64,000 bases of DNA from contig PKUD01000204.1 of the NCBI GenBank assembly GCA_002869695.1, positions 62,001-126,000 on the forward strand, written 5' to 3'. Both the position numbers and the translations under genes were made by a program. The stretch is from Desulfuromonas sp. (GTDB lineage Bacteria > Desulfobacterota > Desulfuromonadia > Desulfuromonadales > Geopsychrobacteraceae). Under the pieces are notes generated by a model that was not told the origin of the DNA, did not search any database, and saw only the letters and a list, made by a program, of their open reading frames with translations. Shown here piece after piece: positions 4,897 through 22,529 of the stretch. Position 1 is the stretch's first letter; each line of letters opens with the position of its first letter.

Positions 4897-7554
4897 TCAA
4901 CCCTCCATCAACTGGCGCAGAACAAGATTCAGGATACCGCCGGCGAGGAAATAGTCGACCTCCTGAAGCGTATCGAGGCGCGAGAGAACATTAACAGACA
5001 GGGTCTCCCCGTTATCACGGCGTAACGTCAGGGGCAGCTGCTGTTTCGGCGACAGTGGCCCGGAATAATCGAGGTTGACGCTCTCGCTGCCATCAAGCTG
5101 AAGGGTCTCTGCAGAGGTTCCTGGGGGGAACTGTAACGGCAAAACCCCCATCCCAATCAGGTTCGACCGGTGGATCCGCTCATACCCTTCGGCAATAACC
5201 GCCTTGATGCCGAGCAACAGAGACCCTTTGGCCGCCCAGTCCCGGCTGGAGCCGGTACCGTACTCACGCCCGGCAATGATCACCAGCGGAGTATTGCTGG
5301 CAGCATAACGCTGGGCTGCGTCAAAGATGCTCATCTCTTCTCCGCTGGGGATATGGCGGGTAAAACCTCCTTCCAGTTTCGGGACCATGCGATTACGCAG
5401 GCGGATATTGGCGAAGGTACCACGCATCATCACCTCGTGGTTGCCGCGCCTTGAGCCGTACGAATTAAAATCTTCTTCGCGAATCCCACGCTCCGTCAGG
5501 TATTGACCGGCCGGGGAGTCCGCCTTGAACGAACCGGCCGGGGAGATATGATCAGTTGTGATACTGTCGCCCAGCAGGGCCAGAATCCGAGCCTCGGAAA
5601 AGCCGGAAAACATGTTACGGTCTGCTTGTCCGGAGAAAAAGCTCGGCAGGCGAATATAGGTCGAACCATCGTCCAAAGCGTAGGTCAGCCCTTCAGGAAC
5701 AGGCAACGCCTGCCAGTGTTCATCGCCGCTAAAAACCTCCGCATACTCCTTGCTGAACATCTGCGAAGTGACCAGCGCAACCTTCTCCGCCACTTCGGCA
5801 TTGCTCGGCCAGATATCCTTCAAATAAACCGGTTTGCCGCTGTTGTCCTCACCCAGGGGATCAGTGCTGAGGTCAATGCGGGTGGTCCCGGCCAGGGCAT
5901 AAGCCACAACCAGCGGCGGAGACGCCAGCCAGTTGGCCTTGACCTGCTGGTGAATTCGGCCTTCAAAATTTCGGTTTCCGGAGAGCACCGAAGAGACGGT
6001 CAGGTCCTGCTCTCTGATTGCATCAGCAATGGGTCCGTTGAGGGGGCCGGAGTTGCCGATACAGGTGGTACACCCGTAACCGACCACCTGAAAGCCGAGA
6101 GCATCCAAGGCGGGTTGCAACCCGGCTGCCGCCAGGTAATCAGTTACCACTTTCGATCCGGGAGCCAGCGACGTCTTGACCCAAGGTTTGCTGACCAAGC
6201 CAAGTGCTACCGCTTTTTCCGCCACCAGGCCGGCAGCCATCATCACCGCCGGGTTTGAGGTATTGGTACAGGATGTGATCGCCGCGATCACCACATCTCC
6301 CTGCTGCAGAGCATAGTCACTACCGGCCACTGCAGCTTTTTTATCCTCTTCCCCGTCCGGCAGAGCCGCTTCTAGAGCAGTTCGCAGTTGACTCATTGCG
6401 ACCCGGTCCTGAGGCCGTTTCGGGCCAGCCAGACTGGGTACGATATGACCCAAGTCAAGCTCAAGAACGGAGCTGTACTGAGGGTCCGCGTCCTCCGGGG
6501 AGCGCCACAGTCCCTGCGCCTTGCAGTATGCTTCAACCAGCTCGAGGGTTGCCTCATCTCGTCCGGTCAGCTTCAGGTATTCGAGCGTGACCTGATCAAC
6601 CGGAAAAAAGCCGCAGGTGGCACCATACTCAGGAGCCATGTTGGCAATCGTTGCGCGATCTGCCAGCGGCAACTGATCCAGTCCTGGGCCGAAGAACTCG
6701 ACAAACTTCCCGACCACACCATGCTTTCGCAGCATTTCCGTCACGGTCAGAACCAGATCTGTCGCGGTAATTCCCTCGCCAAGCGTGCCGGACAACTTAA
6801 ACCCGACCACCTCTGGAACCAGCATCGAAATAGGCTGATCGAGCATAGCCGCTTCCGCTTCGATACCACCAACCCCCCAACCAAGGACTCCCAGGCCATT
6901 GATCATGGTCGTGTGACTGTCGGTCCCAACCAGGGTATCTGGATAGGCCCAGAGTTCACCATCCAACTCGTCGGTCCAGACGGTGCGGGCCAGATACTCC
7001 AAGTTGACCTGATGGCAAATGCCGGTGCCGGGGGGGACTACTCGAAAGTTGTCGAACGCCGCCTGTCCCCAGCGCAGGAACGCATAACGCTCTCGATTGC
7101 GTTCCATTTCAACAGCCACATTGGCGGCATAAGCGTCATTGCTGGCATAATGGTCGACCATGACCGAATGATCTATAACCAGATCGACCGGGATCTGCGG
7201 ATTTATCTTAGCGGGATCGCCACCCTGCTGCTGCACTGCATCGCGCATTGCGGCAAGATCAACAACTGCGGGTACGCCGGTGAAATCCTGCATCAACACC
7301 CGTGCCGGACTGAAATCGATTTCCGGAGCCACACTCTGGTGCGGGCTCCACTGGGCGACTGCCTGAATCATTTGCGCGGTTATATTGCTACCGTTCTCTT
7401 TACGTAACAGGTTTTCCAACAGAATCTTGATGGTTTTAGGCAACCCGTGGACCATCTTCAGGCCATTGTCCGTCGCAGCCTGCAAACTGCAATAACGGTA
7501 GCTTCCATTCTTCAGCTTCAGTGTGGTCCGGCTGCTAAAAGTATCTCTGCCCAT
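4897..7554 (-). CDS. acnA: Aconitate hydratase A
   Basis: 885 residues, the normal length of the AcnA/IRP1 type. The enzyme isomerises citrate and isocitrate in the TCA cycle through a [4Fe-4S] cluster. Cluster ligands are visible in CTNTSNPAVM and in GCTTCIGNSGPL. The active-site regions GTDSHTTMINGLGVLGWGVGG and REYGTGSSRDWAAKG are complete. The C-terminal swivel domain is present. The start ATG is preceded by GAAAGGAACG. A complete oxidative TCA step fits an organism that respires organic acids. The patatin gene follows immediately. Confidence 0.97.
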   Translation of the reverse strand: MGRDTFSSRTTLKLKNGSYRYCSLQAATDNGLKMVHGLPKTIKILLENLLRKENGSNITAQMIQAVAQWSPHQSVAPEIDFSPARVLMQDFTGVPAVVDLAAMRDAVQQQGGDPAKINPQIPVDLVIDHSVMVDHYASNDAYAANVAVEMERNRERYAFLRWGQAAFDNFRVVPPGTGICHQVNLEYLARTVWTDELDGELWAYPDTLVGTDSHTTMINGLGVLGWGVGGIEAEAAMLDQPISMLVPEVVGFKLSGTLGEGITATDLVLTVTEMLRKHGVVGKFVEFFGPGLDQLPLADRATIANMAPEYGATCGFFPVDQVTLEYLKLTGRDEATLELVEAYCKAQGLWRSPEDADPQYSSVLELDLGHIVPSLAGPKRPQDRVAMSQLRTALEAALPDGEEDKKAAVAGSDYALQQGDVVIAAITSCTNTSNPAVMMAAGLVAEKAVALGLVSKPWVKTSLAPGSKVVTDYLAAAGLQPALDALGFQVVGYGCTTCIGNSGPLNGPIADAIREQDLTVSSVLSGNRNFEGRIHQQVKANWLASPPLVVAYALAGTTRIDLSTDPLGEDNSGKPVYLKDIWPSNAEVAEKVALVTSQMFSKEYAEVFSGDEHWQALPVPEGLTYALDDGSTYIRLPSFFSGQADRNMFSGFSEARILALLGDSITTDHISPAGSFKADSPAGQYLTERGIREEDFNSYGSRRGNHEVMMRGTFANIRLRNRMVPKLEGGFTRHIPSGEEMSIFDAAQRYAASNTPLVIIAGREYGTGSSRDWAAKGSLLLGIKAVIAEGYERIHRSNLIGMGVLPLQFPPGTSAETLQLDGSESVNLDYSGPLSPKQQLPLTLRRDNGETLSVNVLSRLDTLQEVDYFLAGGILNLVLRQLMEG

Positions 7555-7659
7555 TTATTCGTTCCTTTCTGCGGTGCGAAAGAGGTTTGCTCAGCATCTG
7601 CCCTATTATAGCAATGTAACCATGTTCTTGCAGCGCGGAATACGTGGGTGGGAACAGTT

Positions 7660-7689
7660 CAGGGCCTTGAAGAAAACTTCAAGGCCCTG
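7660..7689. terminator. Long perfect hairpin between the pseudokinase gene and acnA
   Basis: A 13-bp perfect stem (7660-7672 with 7677-7689) around a 4-base AAAA loop, extendable by two A-T pairs. It lies 35 bases beyond the stop of the leftward pseudokinase gene and upstream of acnA. There is no proper T run on either side, so it may terminate weakly, protect the 3' end of the transcript, or be part of the acnA leader. Confidence 0.5.
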
Positions 7690-7724
7690 AATTGCTGCTG
7701 CTTTTCTGACTGGTGATTCCGGCT

Positions 7725-9602
7725 TCAATTGAGTGACCGTTCCATCCAGATTTTCCACTGATTATTTTCCCGGACCAGGCTGAGTAATTTTCTTGTCCTG
7801 TCGCCGTAGGTGTCTGAGCGGTATTTCTGCAAGAGTTTTACTTCTGCCATATCAGCCCCCAAGAACTTGAAATCAAGAAAGTCCAGTTCGATTTCAATCC
7901 AAGCTGGCCCGCTCAATCGCCGCTGCCGTTCTTCGAGCCACTCCTGCCGGGACTGGGCGGCATCAGGCTGGTAGTCGCCGCTGTAATGGGCGAAGTAGGC
8001 GGAGATATCCTGATCGCTCCAGGCTTTCCCCCAGGCCTTGAGAAAGGCCTGAATGTTTGTCTTAGCAGCATCAGGCTGTTCCTGCTGTAAAACCTGCGGG
8101 TTCTCGGCGGCAGTTTCCGGAATCGGGTCGCTTGGTAACGATTCGATCTTGGTCGCAGCGGCTTTTTCTCCTTTTTCGGCACCTCCCACAGAAACGATTG
8201 CGGCCTGCACAGACTGGCTTGAAACGCCTGCCGCCTTTTCCTCAGCTCCCTTTTTCTGCTCAGGCAGAGTCACGCTCGTCACAGGTGCATCAACTGGCTC
8301 CGGCGTGACTGGACGAACCTTTTTTTGCTCCGTGGTCGATGCTGCAACAATCGGCATTCGCTCAACGCTCACCTTGTGTGCAACCTGATCCTGCGCTGGC
8401 ACCATCCAGACATTGAACAGAAAGTAGACCAGGCTGCCGGCAGCAGCCATCCCGACTAAGCAGCCGCCAACCAGCCAGACTGCGGGGTGACGCTGCTGCG
8501 GCTGATTATCCAGCATTTCCAGGGCGATATTTTTATCGATCTGTGTCTTTTTCAGCTGCTGCTGACATTGTTCAAACATCTCCCGGGTTGCTACCAGTTC
8601 CTGTTCTGCCTGTTTTTGCGCAGCAGCGGCCTCTTCTAATTGCGCATATAAACGAAGCTGCTCCTCGTGCTGCAGAATATTTTCCTTATCGGTTTTTTCC
8701 CCGGCAGGGGCTGGGACCTCTATCAACTGTTGAGGGGGACTGGCATTTTCAACAGTGGCCGGGACAGCAACGCTTTCCTCCTGGATCATTTCGTCAAGCT
8801 CCAGAGGGTAATCAAAATCATCCCGCTCTGCGGCTTGCGAGCTGCCCTTAGGGAGAGGCTCTTCCGGTGGGTCGAGAATCATATCGATAGATCTGATCAG
8901 CTCATCGTAACTGGGGATACCCTCTTGTGACAGCCCCAGCAACGCCGACATCAGCTCTTTTTCCCGATATCCCTTTAGCCTGACGACTAGGTCGACCAGC
9001 GAAACCGACTGGTCATCTTGCGGCAGAACCAGCGCCAGAAAGAGTTCGCCAAGACCAAAAGAGGACTGTTTCTGGGCCAGGCTCGGAGTCTGACTCGGTG
9101 CAGAGATATCGCTGGCAGAACCATAGAAAGATTCAAGCAATTCGGTAATACCGAAATTGGTCAAGACCGGCCTGCCCTGCTCATCCGCAAAGACCTCTTC
9201 GGCGGCAAGCATTCCGTGTTCAAACCCCTTACTATGGGCATAAGCCAATCCCTCGGCAAGCTGCCTGATCACTAGCAACCCCTCTCTTTCGCTCAGGGGA
9301 AGGGGCTGACTTGAGGAAAAACGACCCTGCGGAAAGAAGGTCGTCGTATAGAAGCAGGTGTTCTCTTCGCGGCCGATATCGAAAATGGGGGCCAAGGCAG
9401 GATGATCAAGTTCGGCGAGTTTTTCGAGCTGTTGTTCGAAAGTCTGCTGCTGCTGTGCATCAAATGCATCCGGCAACATAATCAGCTGCAGGACAACATC
9501 GGAACCAAGGAACGGATCCGCAGCTCGGCAGCAGACGCGCTCATCACTCACGGCAAGCTGTTCTTTGACAGTGTAGAGTCCATACTGGTCTTTGATCTTC
9601 AT
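7725..9602 (-). CDS. Membrane-anchored pseudokinase with C-terminal NTF2-like (Cds6-like) domain
   Basis: 625 residues. Residues 1-230 follow the layout of a Hanks-type Ser/Thr kinase, but the catalytic residues are replaced. The VAIK lysine region reads VVLQLIML, the HRD loop reads HGM (residues 129-131), and DFG reads NFG (149-151). Residues 305-360 are Glu/Gln/Lys-rich and likely form a coiled coil. A single membrane segment spans about 374-399 (WLVGGCLVGMAAAGSLVYFL). A Pro/Glu-rich linker follows. The last 110 residues look like the NTF2/SnoaL-like domain found at the C-terminus of some L,D-transpeptidase-type proteins (KAWSDQDISAYFAHYSGDYQ). Topology would put the kinase-like part inside and the NTF2-like part in the periplasm. 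The role is unknown; a signalling or scaffold protein at the envelope is my inference. The gene is monocistronic. Confidence 0.75.
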   Translation of the reverse strand: MKIKDQYGLYTVKEQLAVSDERVCCRAADPFLGSDVVLQLIMLPDAFDAQQQQTFEQQLEKLAELDHPALAPIFDIGREENTCFYTTTFFPQGRFSSSQPLPLSEREGLLVIRQLAEGLAYAHSKGFEHGMLAAEEVFADEQGRPVLTNFGITELLESFYGSASDISAPSQTPSLAQKQSSFGLGELFLALVLPQDDQSVSLVDLVVRLKGYREKELMSALLGLSQEGIPSYDELIRSIDMILDPPEEPLPKGSSQAAERDDFDYPLELDEMIQEESVAVPATVENASPPQQLIEVPAPAGEKTDKENILQHEEQLRLYAQLEEAAAAQKQAEQELVATREMFEQCQQQLKKTQIDKNIALEMLDNQPQQRHPAVWLVGGCLVGMAAAGSLVYFLFNVWMVPAQDQVAHKVSVERMPIVAASTTEQKKVRPVTPEPVDAPVTSVTLPEQKKGAEEKAAGVSSQSVQAAIVSVGGAEKGEKAAATKIESLPSDPIPETAAENPQVLQQEQPDAAKTNIQAFLKAWGKAWSDQDISAYFAHYSGDYQPDAAQSRQEWLEERQRRLSGPAWIEIELDFLDFKFLGADMAEVKLLQKYRSDTYGDRTRKLLSLVRENNQWKIWMERSLN

Positions 9603-9681: not shown

Positions 9682-10323
9682 TCAATAACTTCTTTCTACC
9701 CCGACACGCGGGCAGCTGTCTATCAGGGGGCACCGGCTACAATGGGGCACTGGTGCTTTGCAATATTCACGACCATGGGCAATCAGGATGTGCCCAGCTT
9801 GAGTCCAATAGTGCCGGGGCAACAGGCGCATCAACTCCTGTTCAATTTTTACCGGATCGGTCTGCCGGGTCCAGCCAAAACGGCGCGACAGCCTCTTGAC
9901 ATGGGTATCAACGACCATTCCCGGGATAGCGAAAGCATTACCGAGGACCACGTTGGCGGTTTTACGTCCAACCCCGGGCAGAGCGACCAGTTCCTCCAGA
10001 GATCTCGGCACCTGTCCGGCATGACGCTCCAAAACGGTTGCAGCACAAGCGATCAGGTTCCTGGCCTTGTTGCGAAAGAAACCGGTAGAGCGGATCAGGG
10101 CCTCCAACCGTCCTTGAGGGCATGCGGCCATCTCTTTCGGTCCGGGCAAAAGGACAAACAGGCCCTCTGTCACCAGGTTGACTCTTTTATCGGTGCATTG
10201 CGCTGACAGGATCGTCGCCACCAGCAATTGCCACGGGCTGTTGTATACCAGGGCACACTCGGCGTCCGGATGCAGCTCCTGTAAACGCATGAAAAGATTT
10301 TGAGCCTGGTCAGCTAAACTCAT
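9682..10323 (-). CDS. nth: Endonuclease III
   Basis: 213 residues, standard length. This base-excision repair enzyme removes oxidised pyrimidines and cleaves at abasic sites. The helix-hairpin-helix LPGVGRKTANVVLGNAF carries the catalytic Lys, and VDTHVKRLSRRFG the catalytic Asp. The C-terminal [4Fe-4S] loop has the C-x6-C-x2-C-x5-C spacing (CKAPVPHCSRCPLIDSC). The start motif LILSAQCTD-like region is present (ATILSAQCTDKRVN). The 79 bases between it and the pseudokinase gene are AT-rich. Confidence 0.96.
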   Translation of the reverse strand: MSLADQAQNLFMRLQELHPDAECALVYNSPWQLLVATILSAQCTDKRVNLVTEGLFVLLPGPKEMAACPQGRLEALIRSTGFFRNKARNLIACAATVLERHAGQVPRSLEELVALPGVGRKTANVVLGNAFAIPGMVVDTHVKRLSRRFGWTRQTDPVKIEQELMRLLPRHYWTQAGHILIAHGREYCKAPVPHCSRCPLIDSCPRVGVERSY

Positions 10324-18539: not shown

Positions 18540-19640
18540 TTAATACCTCGTGGCTTCGTTGAATTCGCCTATTTTACCGTTTTCAACTTTATAAAATTTG
18601 GCACCGGAAAAGTGCTTATTACTGAGTAAACCTGTGTCCGTACTGGTCACAAAGACCTGCCCGGCCTGATTGAGCAATGACTCAAAAAAAGAATTTTTTA
18701 GGTCATCATCCAACTCACTGGTCATATCGTCCAACAACAAAACCGGACGGATACCGCGGTGCTGTTTAAAGTCAATTATCTGAGCCGTTTTAAAAGCCAG
18801 CATAAAATAACGCTGCTGGCCCTGGGAACCGTACAGAGATAAAGCTTTTCCATTGAGTAAAAACTGAGGATCATCGCGATGAGGCCCTGTCAAGGTAGCC
18901 CCATACAAACGCTCTTTTCCCCTGTTAGATTTCAACCTTTCTGCCATCTTCAATTTACAACTTTCCGGATCTTCTGCCAAAACCGGATATTTTATTTGTA
19001 CGGATTCTTTGCACGGGTAAACGTCAGCGAAAAGTTTTACCAGAATTGCATTAATCCTTTCGATATAGGACAGTCGATAAAAAATTATTTTGGTCGCCAA
19101 ATCAGTAAATTGATCATCCCAAAGATCCGCAGGAATATCCGTTCTTTTCAAAGCGGCATTACGCTGCCTCAGACAACGTAAATAATTTTGAAAAAGAGAC
19201 AGATATTTGTTGTCCGTCTGGAATACTGCCCTATCAAGTAAACTTCTTCTTAAAGCAGGAGATCCTTTAACAATGAAAATATCATCAGGGTAAAAAAGAA
19301 CTGTGTCCAAAAATCCTAAACTATCAGAATTTTTATTTGGTTTTTTTTTATTCAAAAAAATACTTTTTATATCATTTTCTATTTCAAATTCTAAGTAATT
19401 TGATACCTCATTTTTTTTTACAATTATATTTATTTTAGTTCTTTTAGAGTTACTATTGATTACTTCTGAAATTTTTCTTCCTCTAAAACTTTTTAAATTT
19501 GCTAAAACATATATTGATTCAATAAAGTTTGTTTTTCCTTGTGCATTTTTTCCAATAATTAAGTTTATTCCCTTTGATGGTTTAATTTCTTCTTTAATAA
19601 TATTTCTAAAGTTTTCTATTTTAATTTTTTCAATGTACAT
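18540..19640 (-). CDS. recF: DNA replication and repair protein RecF
   Basis: 366 residues. RecF loads RecA at gaps as part of RecFOR. The Walker A motif is GKNAQGKT near residue 30. The ABC signature region corresponds to LYGSQGQQRYFMLAFK, and Walker B to LLLDDMTSELD. Base composition changes inside the gene. The first third (higher coordinates, above about 19,250) is very AT-rich and encodes many Lys, Asn and Ile. The C-terminal two-thirds approaches the rest of the window. Both parts align with the RecF family in one frame, so the gene is intact. It is 1 base downstream of dnaN and abuts gyrB. Confidence 0.96.
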   Translation of the reverse strand: MYIEKIKIENFRNIIKEEIKPSKGINLIIGKNAQGKTNFIESIYVLANLKSFRGRKISEVINSNSKRTKINIIVKKNEVSNYLEFEIENDIKSIFLNKKKPNKNSDSLGFLDTVLFYPDDIFIVKGSPALRRSLLDRAVFQTDNKYLSLFQNYLRCLRQRNAALKRTDIPADLWDDQFTDLATKIIFYRLSYIERINAILVKLFADVYPCKESVQIKYPVLAEDPESCKLKMAERLKSNRGKERLYGATLTGPHRDDPQFLLNGKALSLYGSQGQQRYFMLAFKTAQIIDFKQHRGIRPVLLLDDMTSELDDDLKNSFFESLLNQAGQVFVTSTDTGLLSNKHFSGAKFYKVENGKIGEFNEATRY

Positions 19641-19641
19641 T

Positions 19642-20751
19642 TTATAAGCGCATAGGCATTATTACTGAAAAGAAATCTTTATTTTTATCTGCTTCTATCA
19701 ATCCAGGGGACAGATTATCTTTTAAATGTAATTGAATAAATTCATCATTCATGACCTGAAGAATATCCAATATATATCTAGCATTAAATCCAATCGTTAT
19801 TTCAGGCCCGCTGTATGACATATCAAGTTCTTCATGAGCATCTCCAAGATCCGGATTTGAAGAAGATAGTTCTAAAATATTATTATCCAACTTAATTTTT
19901 ATACCCTTTGATTTTTCACTCGAAAGAACAGAAATACGTCTCAAGGCATGTAAAAATTCCTCTCTGTTAATAGAGGCTGGATTTTCCATTTTCTGTGGAA
20001 CGACCCTGCTATAATCAGGAAATTCTCCATCAACTAGTCGCATAACAAGAGTGGCATTTCCTGAATTAACAACAAAATTATTATCAGATATACCTATTTT
20101 AAAATCTTGATCATTTTCTTCTGTTAGTTTTTTTATTTCATAAATACCCTTTTTAGGTAATATGAAACCTTTAGAAAAATTAGAATTGAGATTATTTTTC
20201 AAGGATTTTTTTATCATTGACAATCTATGACCATCGGTGGAAACCATTGTTAAAATATTAGATTCTTCTGATTTGAAATAAATACCTGTTAAATTATATT
20301 TTGTTTCATCAGTAGAAATTGAAAAAATTGTTTTTTCAATCATTTCTTTAAAAATTACAGGCTCTATATTATTAAAATCTATATTGTTTATTTCTGGATA
20401 TTTTGGGAATTCATCCGGGGATAAACCAACTAAATTGAAAATTGATTTTCCGCATTTTATTTCTACCCAAAAATTTTCTTTAACATTAAATATAATTTCT
20501 TTATTAGGAAGTTCTTTTATTATTTCAAATATTTTTTTGGCTGAAATTGTTACTCTTCCCTCTTTTTTTATATTTGCTGTGTAATAGGATCTTACCCCTA
20601 CTTCAAGATCTGTTGCTGTAAAGAAAATATTATTATCAACTGCTTCAATAAGAACATTCGCTAATATGGGTATAGTGTGTCTTTTTTCAATTATTCCCTG
20701 AACCCTGGTTAAAGCTTTAAGGAAAGTTTCTCGTTCGATAGTAAATTGCAT
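19642..20751 (-). CDS. dnaN: DNA polymerase III beta subunit (sliding clamp)
   Basis: 369 residues from ATG 20751. DnaN forms the ring clamp that tethers Pol III to DNA. The N-terminus MQFTIERETFLKALTRVQG and the C-terminus SVIMPMRL are hallmark clamp sequences; the latter forms the partner-binding region. I chose ATG 20751 because the upstream Met (20763) precedes the GGAGG Shine-Dalgarno sequence that sits 5 bases before 20751. The whole gene is markedly AT-rich and its product is rich in Lys, Asn and Ile compared with the other proteins here, yet no frame damage is seen. Confidence 0.97.
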   Translation of the reverse strand: MQFTIERETFLKALTRVQGIIEKRHTIPILANVLIEAVDNNIFFTATDLEVGVRSYYTANIKKEGRVTISAKKIFEIIKELPNKEIIFNVKENFWVEIKCGKSIFNLVGLSPDEFPKYPEINNIDFNNIEPVIFKEMIEKTIFSISTDETKYNLTGIYFKSEESNILTMVSTDGHRLSMIKKSLKNNLNSNFSKGFILPKKGIYEIKKLTEENDQDFKIGISDNNFVVNSGNATLVMRLVDGEFPDYSRVVPQKMENPASINREEFLHALRRISVLSSEKSKGIKIKLDNNILELSSSNPDLGDAHEELDMSYSGPEITIGFNARYILDILQVMNDEFIQLHLKDNLSPGLIEADKNKDFFSVIMPMRL

Positions 20752-20975
20752 CAGGGCCTCCATTCACACAGCTTACTTATTATTATTTATTATTTTAAAA
20801 AAATAGTAGTAATAATAGAGTCTGTTTATATGTTTATAATTCTATAAATATATGAAATAGAATAATTTTTTTATGTTTCAAGGGTGTTTATAAATTATCC
20901 ATTTCTTTATAAAAATGTGGATAAGTCTCTTTTTTTATTTTAACCCTATTTATATTCATAATTTTATCAACAACT
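20752..20975. other. AT-rich dnaA-dnaN intergenic region, candidate half of oriC
   Basis: 224 bases made largely of A and T with runs such as TTATTATTATTTATTATTTT. It holds one perfect DnaA box (20916-20924). One-mismatch TTATCAACA lies at 20964-20972. Weaker matches are TTATCCATT at 20895-20903 and TGTTTATAA at 20885-20893. Clustered boxes next to an AT-rich stretch that could unwind are the usual composition of an origin. With the box upstream of dnaA, this suggests a bipartite origin flanking dnaA. Divergent gene orientation around this point supports it. Confidence 0.65.
20916..20924 (-). promoter_or_regulatory. DnaA box, perfect consensus
   Basis: TTATCCACA on the minus strand, a full match to the DnaA consensus, 52 bases beyond the dnaA stop codon. 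Confidence 0.8.
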
Positions 20976-22328
20976 TTACGGCTTCATATTATTCATCAAT
21001 TTTTCTATGGTTGCTTTTAACTGGATATCCTCTTCCATTTTCTTCTCAATTTTCTTAATCGCGTGGATTATGGTCGAGTGGTCTTTACCCCCGAATTTAC
21101 TACCAATTTCTGGAAAAGAAGAAGATGTCATTTTGCGAGAAATATACATGGATATCTGTCGAGGTAAAACCAGATTTTTTAGTCTTTTAGACGATTTTAT
21201 ATCTGATGTTTTTATGTGATAGTAATTGGCGACCGTTTTTTGAATTGCTTCAACCGTAATTTCCTTGTTTTGCTCAACCAGAATGTCCTTAAGCACCTCT
21301 TTTGCCATATCCAGAGTTATGGGTGTGGATGTCAAACTGGCATAAGCACCAATTCTTATCAAATACCCTTCAAGTTCACGAACATTACTGGTGATCGTAT
21401 TGGACAGGAAATAGGCCACATCTTCCGGAAGGCTAATTCTGTTCTGATCGGCTTTCATATTAAGAATAGCCTGTTTGGTTTCAATATCCGGAGCCTGAAT
21501 ATCGGCGATAAGACCCCATTCAAAGCGTGACCGTAACCTTTCTTCAAGGCCAGGCATTTCTTTAGGAAATTTATCTGAGGTTACAACTATTTGTTTATGC
21601 GATTCATATAATGCATTAAATGTATGAAAAAATTCTTCCTGAGTTCTTTCTTTACCCGCAAGAAACTGTATATCATCGATAAGAAGAACATCCATTGATC
21701 TGAACTTATTTCTGAAATCATCCATTTTGGCATATCTCAGTGAATTAATAAGTTCATTCATAAATTTTTCAGAGGAGTAATAACATACTTTGATATTTTT
21801 ATTTTTTGATATTATTTCATTTCCAATAGCATGAACGATATGGGTTTTACCTAATCCAACTCCGCCATAAATAAATAAAGGATTATATGTTGTTGCGGGA
21901 TTGTTTGCTACGGCCATAGCGGCGGCATGGGCAAATTGATTTGATGGTCCAGATACAAAACTTTCGAAAGTATATTTTTTATTTAAATTCTGAAAATGGT
22001 TTTCTTGCACAGGAATTTCTTTTTTTGATATTACTTTCTTTTTTTCTACCTGTTTTTTTTCATTTTTTTTAATAATGTTTTTTGTACTTTTTTCATTTAT
22101 TTTTATTTTAATTTTATAATTTGCAGCACCTATATCTGACAATGTTTCTTCAAGCAATGATCTGTAATTATCTTTTACCCAGTCAGAAATGAAACGGTTA
22201 GGTACTTCCAAATTTACGATATCTTTTTCAATATCAACAAAAACGAGAGGTTTTATCCATGTTGAAAAATTATGTGGACTCAATCTTTTTTCCAGAAGAT
22301 CCACTGTTTTTGTCCAGAGATGTTGCAT
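20976..22328 (-). CDS. dnaA: Chromosomal replication initiator protein DnaA
   Basis: 450 residues from ATG 22328. DnaA binds DnaA boxes as an ATP complex and melts the origin. Domain I is LWTKTVDLLEKRLSPHNFSTWI. Domain II is a Lys-rich linker (residues 85-120) encoded by very AT-rich DNA. Domain III has Walker A GGVGLGKTH and Walker B LLIDDIQFLAGKE. Domain IV carries the DNA-binding signature FGGKDHSTIIHAIKKIE. The Met at 22328 fits the family start and has AGGTGA 5 bases upstream; the longer frame from 22352 begins within a DnaA box. A DnaA box upstream and others downstream suggest autoregulation and proximity to oriC. Confidence 0.97.
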   Translation of the reverse strand: MQHLWTKTVDLLEKRLSPHNFSTWIKPLVFVDIEKDIVNLEVPNRFISDWVKDNYRSLLEETLSDIGAANYKIKIKINEKSTKNIIKKNEKKQVEKKKVISKKEIPVQENHFQNLNKKYTFESFVSGPSNQFAHAAAMAVANNPATTYNPLFIYGGVGLGKTHIVHAIGNEIISKNKNIKVCYYSSEKFMNELINSLRYAKMDDFRNKFRSMDVLLIDDIQFLAGKERTQEEFFHTFNALYESHKQIVVTSDKFPKEMPGLEERLRSRFEWGLIADIQAPDIETKQAILNMKADQNRISLPEDVAYFLSNTITSNVRELEGYLIRIGAYASLTSTPITLDMAKEVLKDILVEQNKEITVEAIQKTVANYYHIKTSDIKSSKRLKNLVLPRQISMYISRKMTSSSFPEIGSKFGGKDHSTIIHAIKKIEKKMEEDIQLKATIEKLMNNMKP

Positions 22329-22342
22329 TGAATCACCTAATT

Positions 22343-22351
22343 TTATCCACA
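22343..22351 (+). promoter_or_regulatory. DnaA box, perfect consensus
   Basis: TTATCCACA on the plus strand, 15 bases upstream of the dnaA start codon; it could serve both origin function and dnaA autoregulation. Confidence 0.75.
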
Positions 22352-22529
22352 AAATACCAACAGCTGTGAATTGTCTTTTAAGAGTTTTCGGAAGGCAAAA
22401 AAGTCAGCACTAGAAATTAGCAAACCACCCTTTTTTTTGCAAGCATTCTGAAGGATATCCTTACACAGTTTTTTTCTGACAAGGAGGTTGAGATTAATTC
22501 TGTATCGCCATGAAATATCGTTATTTATC

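Follow-up and report, generated by a model that had tools for sequence, protein, structure and literature searches.

The question raised by this locus is what a bacterial membrane protein can do when it joins a kinase-like domain that has lost its catalytic residues to an NTF2-like domain predicted to lie outside the inner membrane. Within the window (the whole 64,000-nucleotide stretch of a Desulfuromonas sp. contig analysed here), a 625-aa ORF with an ATG start occupies exactly positions 7725-9602 of the minus strand, as had been noted, with no strand given, in a preliminary description made from the sequence alone. The gene, referred to here as type A and delimited from the ORF and its orthologues, encodes a pseudokinase, a coiled coil, a transmembrane (TM) helix, and an NTF2 domain. 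Profile matches, structure prediction, and conservation all back the earlier reading of a transmembrane pseudokinase fused to a periplasmic NTF2-like domain. On either side lie minus-strand genes that we take to be nth, for an endonuclease III-like protein (9682..10323), and acnA, for an aconitase-like protein (4897..7554), an arrangement that is conserved.

The kinase-like domain spans residues 4-245 (8868..9593, minus strand; from profile, model, and alignment) and is matched at residues 43-157 by the Pfam family PK_Tyr_Ser-Thr (PF07714; E 2.1e-7, 31 bits against a cut-off of 23.1); the score for Pkinase (PF00069) is 25.4 bits, under the cut-off of 31.7. An AlphaFold model of residues 1-254, run with 16 orthologues, displays a two-lobed kinase fold (pLDDT 89.2, pTM 0.86), for which the closest solved structure in Foldseek is Stk1/PknB of S. 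aureus (E 1.1e-12, TM 0.71), and which aligns in VIA-align with 4eqm_D, the S. aureus PknB, at Z 22.1 with an rmsd of 3.3 over 229 residues. Structure prediction was the check that the preliminary description had put forward, with the lack of a kinase fold as the outcome that would speak against it, and the fold was present. A fold search with the full-length model returned mostly kinases and was uninformative on the NTF2 part. Residues 4-245 are thus confidently predicted to adopt a Hanks-type protein kinase fold. EssB/YukC and MviN were not among the 50 structural matches listed by Foldseek and VIA-align, which is no measure of kinship.

The residues of an active Hanks-type kinase, namely the VAIK Lys, the HRD Asp, and the DFG Asp, are absent from the window copy (Q39, M131, and N149), which reads VVLQ in place of VAIK, H129-G130-M131 in place of HRD, and N149-F150-G151 in place of DFG. 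Also missing are the Gly-rich loop, the alpha-C Glu (Q58 instead), and the activation segment with its APE motif. Across 17 orthologues, the window's included, the HRD Asp position holds Asp in just one (L065), the catalytic Asn is found in two, and the catalytic Lys and the alpha-C Glu in none; they also lack the helix-F Asp and the activation segment with its APE motif, and their Gly loop is degenerate. Retained residues are the beta3 Lys, in 14/17, and the DFG Asp, in 16/17, the window copy being the sole one without the latter. The earlier statement that all three catalytic elements are replaced therefore holds for the window copy but not for the family, in which the alignment shows a consistent loss of the catalytic loop and activation segment but retention of two nucleotide-site residues in most members. 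The type-A protein is a pseudokinase. GLW pseudokinases, as outlined in excerpts of PMC12599244, have GLW in place of HRD and a leucine/tryptophan run at beta3; neither feature was found here, the window copy having HGM and VVLQ and the family mostly xGx and VxLK.

At the other end of the protein, the Cds6_C (Csd6-type) NTF2 domain at residues 510-624 (7731..8075, minus strand), placed by profile, model, and pocket alignment, gives a Pfam match at residues 517-621 (E 1.3e-14, 54.9 bits against a cut-off of 27). The name "Cds6" refers to Csd6 (HP0518), an L,D-carboxypeptidase of H. pylori (extract of PMC12880188). For Pgp2 of C. jejuni, the available part of PMC8038945 describes an NTF2-domain pocket that binds peptidoglycan, residues that matter in vivo (K257, K307, E324, F242, and Y233), and the loss of sacculus binding in K307A; in Bd1075, a monomer with the same NTF2 domain, that domain directs the enzyme to the convex cell face (extract of PMC8938487). 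When the NTF2 segments of Pgp2, Csd6, and Bd1075 were aligned with those of the 17 orthologues, Pgp2 W225, Y233, Y237, F242, K257, and K307 fell on W528, Y536, Y540, Y544, R559, and K605, and E324 corresponds by continuation, one residue past the aligned Pgp2 stretch, to E621, which is invariant in the orthologues. Six of these seven positions are invariant, the seventh (Y544) being Tyr in 15 and Phe in two; given 21 invariant of 116 columns, the chance of at least six is 1e-4, a figure that treats positions as independent and concerns Pgp2 pocket residues chosen partly for their conservation. Pgp2 K257 is always Arg in type A (R559), and Pgp2 K268 is E570 in the window copy. By this alignment, the NTF2 domain of type A keeps a Pgp2-type peptidoglycan-binding pocket, and the protein may itself bind peptidoglycan. 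Of 247 genomes sampled across the phylum, 64 have Cds6_C, as do 41 of 136 in the order.

Between the two domains, the full-length AlphaFold model has a long helix at residues 301-365 (8508..8702), predicted as a coiled coil and conserved in orthologues, a single membrane helix at residues 373-399 (8406..8486; also placed by alignment), and disorder at residues 400-507, ahead of a confident NTF2 fold at 510-624, so that the coiled coil and one membrane helix reported earlier to precede the Cds6-like domain are both seen. With the alignment added, the disordered periplasmic linker was set at residues 400-508 (8079..8405); all three features are on the minus strand. G380xxxG384 of the membrane helix is invariant among the 17 orthologues. 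K and R are more numerous in the 15 residues before the helix than in the 15 after it in 13/17, equal in three, and fewer in one (L053), and the bias is weak in the window copy (1 K/R before the helix, 1 after); the N-terminus is probably inside. The linker of type-A orthologues carries a WWPxGxEF-like motif in which G474 and E476 are invariant. As a minor observation, this motif, which lies ahead of the NTF2 domain (e.g., L036 and L037), is doubled in genus g5 and mostly degraded in the window copy.

A search for the fusion in related genomes, as suggested in the preliminary description, found the same architecture, as full-length type A, in 19/44 genomes of the Geopsychrobacteraceae (f1), and the architecture is therefore not a product of chance. 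Across the order, 21/136 genomes match a model of the kinase part at E 1e-30, these being the 19 full-length copies of the family, a fragment interrupted by stop codons in G025, and two further kinase matches in G109. All three parts (kinase, coiled coil/TM, NTF2) occur in 16 of 78 named public loci, all under record titles naming Desulfuromonadales, Deltaproteobacteria, or a genus within that order; one of the 16 is Malonomonas rubra DSM 5091 (L062), assigned by NCBI to the family Geopsychrobacteraceae. The fusion survey drew on 217 NTF2-bearing ORF entries in fetched loci, many of them duplicates of one gene, and is no census of other phyla. Among these entries, 78 also match kinase models, all from f1 or from G056 of the same order, and 59 of at least 500 aa have no kinase match, some being cut by locus ends and one (L015) being merely the C-terminal piece of the G056 kinase.

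Most type-A copies whose surroundings were read lie, like that of the window, between nth and acnA and downstream of gyrA. In genus g5, type A sits elsewhere, beside an S1-domain gene or a gene for sulfate permease or phospholipase A1, and in G007 a two-component pair lies downstream. No conserved cytoplasmic partner gene was found at type-A loci in the gene neighbourhoods examined, and the attempt to name one by context was dropped, since the neighbours vary between the nth/acnA and g5 settings and no conserved feature indicates one. Purifying selection is indicated by kinase-domain dN/dS values of 0.16 and 0.23 for the two closest pairs, the others being too divergent for this measure. The type-A protein of the window shares only 37% identity with that of its genus mate (L051/G001), compared with 72-88% for nth, an endonuclease/phosphatase-like gene, gpsA, acnA, patatin, gyrA, and gyrB, and 56% for a TPR gene. 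Intact type A is missing from 25/44 family genomes and is therefore dispensable in the family. From the full-length orthologues, the synteny, and the purifying selection in two pairs, type A is a real, maintained gene and is not decaying.

The wall-binding module recurs elsewhere in these genomes. The window genome encodes a 451-aa TPR-YkuD-Cds6_C protein (LDT-NTF2; C55:5697-7052), whose nearest PDB entries are Bd1075 (E 1.9e-42), Csd6, and Pgp2, and whose gene overlaps a kinase-less TPR-NTF2 gene (7049-8161) by 4 bases. In G007, the gene overlapping LDT-NTF2 encodes a 697-aa Pkinase-TPR-Cds6_C protein ("type B"), a paralogue of type A. HGN, HGA, or HGG replaces HRD in the catalytic loop of the seven type-B sequences inspected, out of nine collected, and type B are therefore also pseudokinases. 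Two relatives occur in G056, which belongs to a different family of this order: one of 1,232 aa that retains HRDLKPEN and DFG but has His at beta3, and one of 703 aa that reads HQS and DFS. LDT-NTF2 is present in 36/44 f1 genomes, including all 19 with type A, and none of the eight f1 genomes without it has an intact type A; in G025, there is no LDT match and type A is decayed. This co-occurrence (P = 0.006 for 44 genomes and 0.14 for the 26 that are at least 90% complete, uncorrected for relatedness) is no more than suggestive of a link between type A and LDT-NTF2. A common origin of types A and B was considered and set aside, as the kinase-domain tree does not join them: type A is one clade (100/100) on a long branch, separate from type B, which (branch 92/84) clusters with ordinary kinases from this order. 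Resolution in the NTF2 trees is poor, and no single fusion event is claimed.

With regard to other kinases, no PF00069 match besides type A itself was found in the window genome (96.8% complete), and the sister genome G001 (100% complete) has no other above cut-off, with three weak sub-threshold matches. In at least seven of the 19 type-A genomes (G000, G001, G011, G019, G022, G033, and G105), all clear matches are type A or type B, the latter being assigned by size and place, with one further weak match below cut-off in G011; the remaining type-A genomes carry full-length Hanks-type kinases. With at least seven of 19 genomes lacking another clear kinase, the partnering of an active Hanks kinase is therefore no general role of type A.

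The reading that we favour, at a probability of about 0.5, is that type A is a dimeric, peptidoglycan-docked, non-phosphorylating pseudokinase that serves in the inner membrane as a receptor or scaffold of the cell-wall machinery. Outside, the Csd6-type NTF2 domain on its long, flexible linker would dock on peptidoglycan, probably on stem peptides; the GxxxG membrane helix and the coiled coil would pair two copies; and inside, the kinase-fold domain would provide, without phosphorylating, a platform for binding, with wall docking setting where it lies or how its dimer is arranged. Type A may be part of a family-specific toolkit built on a shared wall-binding module and centred on a Csd6/Bd1075-like L,D-transpeptidase/carboxypeptidase, and its likely job, given membership in such a toolkit, would be a phosphorylation-free one in wall editing (cell shape, growth sites), either positioning it or reporting on it. 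As a counterpoint, type A sits among housekeeping genes (nth, acnA, and gyrA), outside the LDT operon. Dimerisation, topology, wall docking, partner recruitment, and a role in cell shape are what we infer for type A, support being weakest for the step that would link wall state to a cytoplasmic response. The preliminary description had proposed inside-to-outside signalling or a scaffold; this is plausible, but no more so than wall anchoring or sensing from outside to inside, because the pocket of the outer domain's family binds peptidoglycan. A more specific and tentative proposal, which we consider possible but doubtful, is a wall receptor of PknB-like layout whose conformation or clustering, rather than phosphorylation, would report the state of the stem peptides made by the Csd6-like L,D-transpeptidase. 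If true, PASTA kinase signalling would have, in a Gram-negative lineage, a counterpart that needs no phosphorylation, in genomes without an active Hanks kinase.

SelO-type pseudokinases catalyse AMPylation, and the retention of the Lys and the DFG Asp in most type-A orthologues is consistent with some such residual activity. New enzymatic activities have been gained by some bacterial pseudokinases, according to excerpts of PMC12599244, but the family-wide loss of the alpha-C Glu, catalytic Asn, and activation segment, together with the lack of Lys and Asp in the window copy, makes residual catalysis barely credible here. The same two residues could instead serve nucleotide sensing, with the beta3 Lys (14/17) and DFG Asp (16/17) allowing most members to bind ATP/Mg and to relay their nucleotide state outward to the wall-binding domain, an ability that the window copy would have lost. 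We regard this as unlikely: the alpha-C Glu is found in 0/17 and the catalytic Asn in 2/17, the Gly loop has degenerated, both Lys and Asp are missing from the window protein, and the pseudokinases of EssB/YukC and MviN bind no ATP, as stated in parts of PMC12599244 and PMC9600267.

Like many eukaryotic pseudokinases, type A might be the allosteric partner of an active Hanks-type kinase, and full-length kinases of this type do occur in many family genomes; the window genome, however, has no other PF00069 match, G001 has none above cut-off, and at least seven of the 19 type-A genomes show no clear match beyond types A and B, which leaves the partnership highly improbable. A degenerating relic of a kinase receptor, heading for loss, would fit the very fast divergence from the genus mate (37% vs 72-88% for most neighbours), the decayed copy in G025, and the absence or breakage of the gene in 25/44 family genomes, but is improbable in view of the full-length frame, the synteny, the purifying selection in close pairs, and the invariant pocket and GxxxG. 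The association domain of CaMKII has an NTF2-like fold, and the NTF2 domain of type A could by the same token be an oligomerisation hub, making the protein a self-assembling membrane platform and no wall binder. The CaMKII holoenzyme is the first Foldseek row for the full-length model, at an rmsd of 32.6 and with no fitted superposition of the whole protein. We hold such a hub to be rather unlikely, as Pfam identifies the domain as Cds6_C and lists no CaMKII association domain up to E 10, its invariant residues fall on the Pgp2 peptidoglycan pocket, and Bd1075 is monomeric with the same domain (extract of PMC8938487).

No description of a kinase or pseudokinase fused to an envelope NTF2 domain was found in open-licence PMC papers, in agreement with the earlier remark that no system with this combination has been described. 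The nearest known kinds to the pseudokinase-NTF2 fusion are transmembrane pseudokinases (EssB/YukC) and PASTA kinases, neither with an NTF2 ectodomain. The nearest known working model, by analogy, is EssB/YukC of type VIIb secretion, which, in the available parts of PMC9600267 and PMC12599244, has a degraded Gly loop, a short activation loop, and no ATP binding, and provides a scaffold and dimer stalk. Like type A, it has an N-terminal cytoplasmic pseudokinase, one membrane helix, and an extracytoplasmic domain, but that of YukC is all-helical, in contrast to the NTF2 domain of type A; YukC is not among the four Pfam families matching type A up to E 10, and no type VII genes were recognised among the type-A neighbours examined. 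PASTA kinases (PknB/StkP/Stk1) share the order of kinase, TM helix, and wall-binding ectodomain and include the top structural match (PknB/Stk1), whereas type A lacks PASTA domains and catalytic residues; Pfam gave no PASTA match in type A, and NF033483 scored 34 bits against a cut-off of 450. The L,D-carboxypeptidases Csd6, Pgp2, and Bd1075 share with type A a C-terminal Cds6_C NTF2 domain and its pocket; unlike them, type A has no YkuD domain (no PF03734 match up to E 10 in Pfam) and bears its NTF2 domain on a membrane pseudokinase. Finally, in MviN (ActPs3) of Mycobacterium tuberculosis, a pseudokinase controls peptidoglycan synthesis by recruitment (excerpts of PMC12599244). PknB phosphorylates the pseudokinase tail of MviN, whereas no further kinase-family match exists in the window genome, and type A, with its one membrane helix, has no Pfam match to a MurJ/MviN transporter domain.

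Bacterial pseudokinases are common, and a ligand or job is known for very few. Here, the family of the outer domain has a mapped ligand pocket, and what a membrane pseudokinase senses is therefore directly testable, with a cultured member of the lineage existing in Malonomonas rubra DSM 5091. The finding also points to possible inner-membrane pseudokinase partners for Csd6-type wall editing, which is known from secreted enzymes.

Further carriers of Cds6_C include Lcl_C-NTF2 and outer-membrane efflux protein-NTF2 proteins. For example, G000:C13:2975-4729 (L032) encodes an OEP/TolC-like outer membrane efflux protein with a C-terminal Cds6_C, possibly a wall-anchored efflux channel, and a Chitiniphilus protein in L072 resembles it by eye. 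Proteins of about 900 aa with a C-terminal Cds6_C occur in L084, L091-L095, L097, L099, and L101 (Limnobacter and other Burkholderiales); that of L084 has, by eye, many hydrophobic stretches, and therefore another kind of membrane protein may use the module. In L066, L068, L083, and L100 (Salinisphaera and Endozoicomonas), a tandem pair of Cds6_C lies behind TPR-like repeats, the repeats being noted by eye in L066.

A separate observation concerns window positions 19200-22450 (the start of recF, dnaN, and dnaA; minus strand), where GC content is 25-38%, compared with about 50-57% in the flanks. The relatives L200, L201, and L202 show the same AT-rich island, with a GC3 of 10-37% for dnaA-dnaN-recF. 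The recF gene of G001 has 18.6% GC and the adjoining gyrB/gyrA 44-53%, and recF is just 39-41% identical, compared with 83-89% for gyrB.
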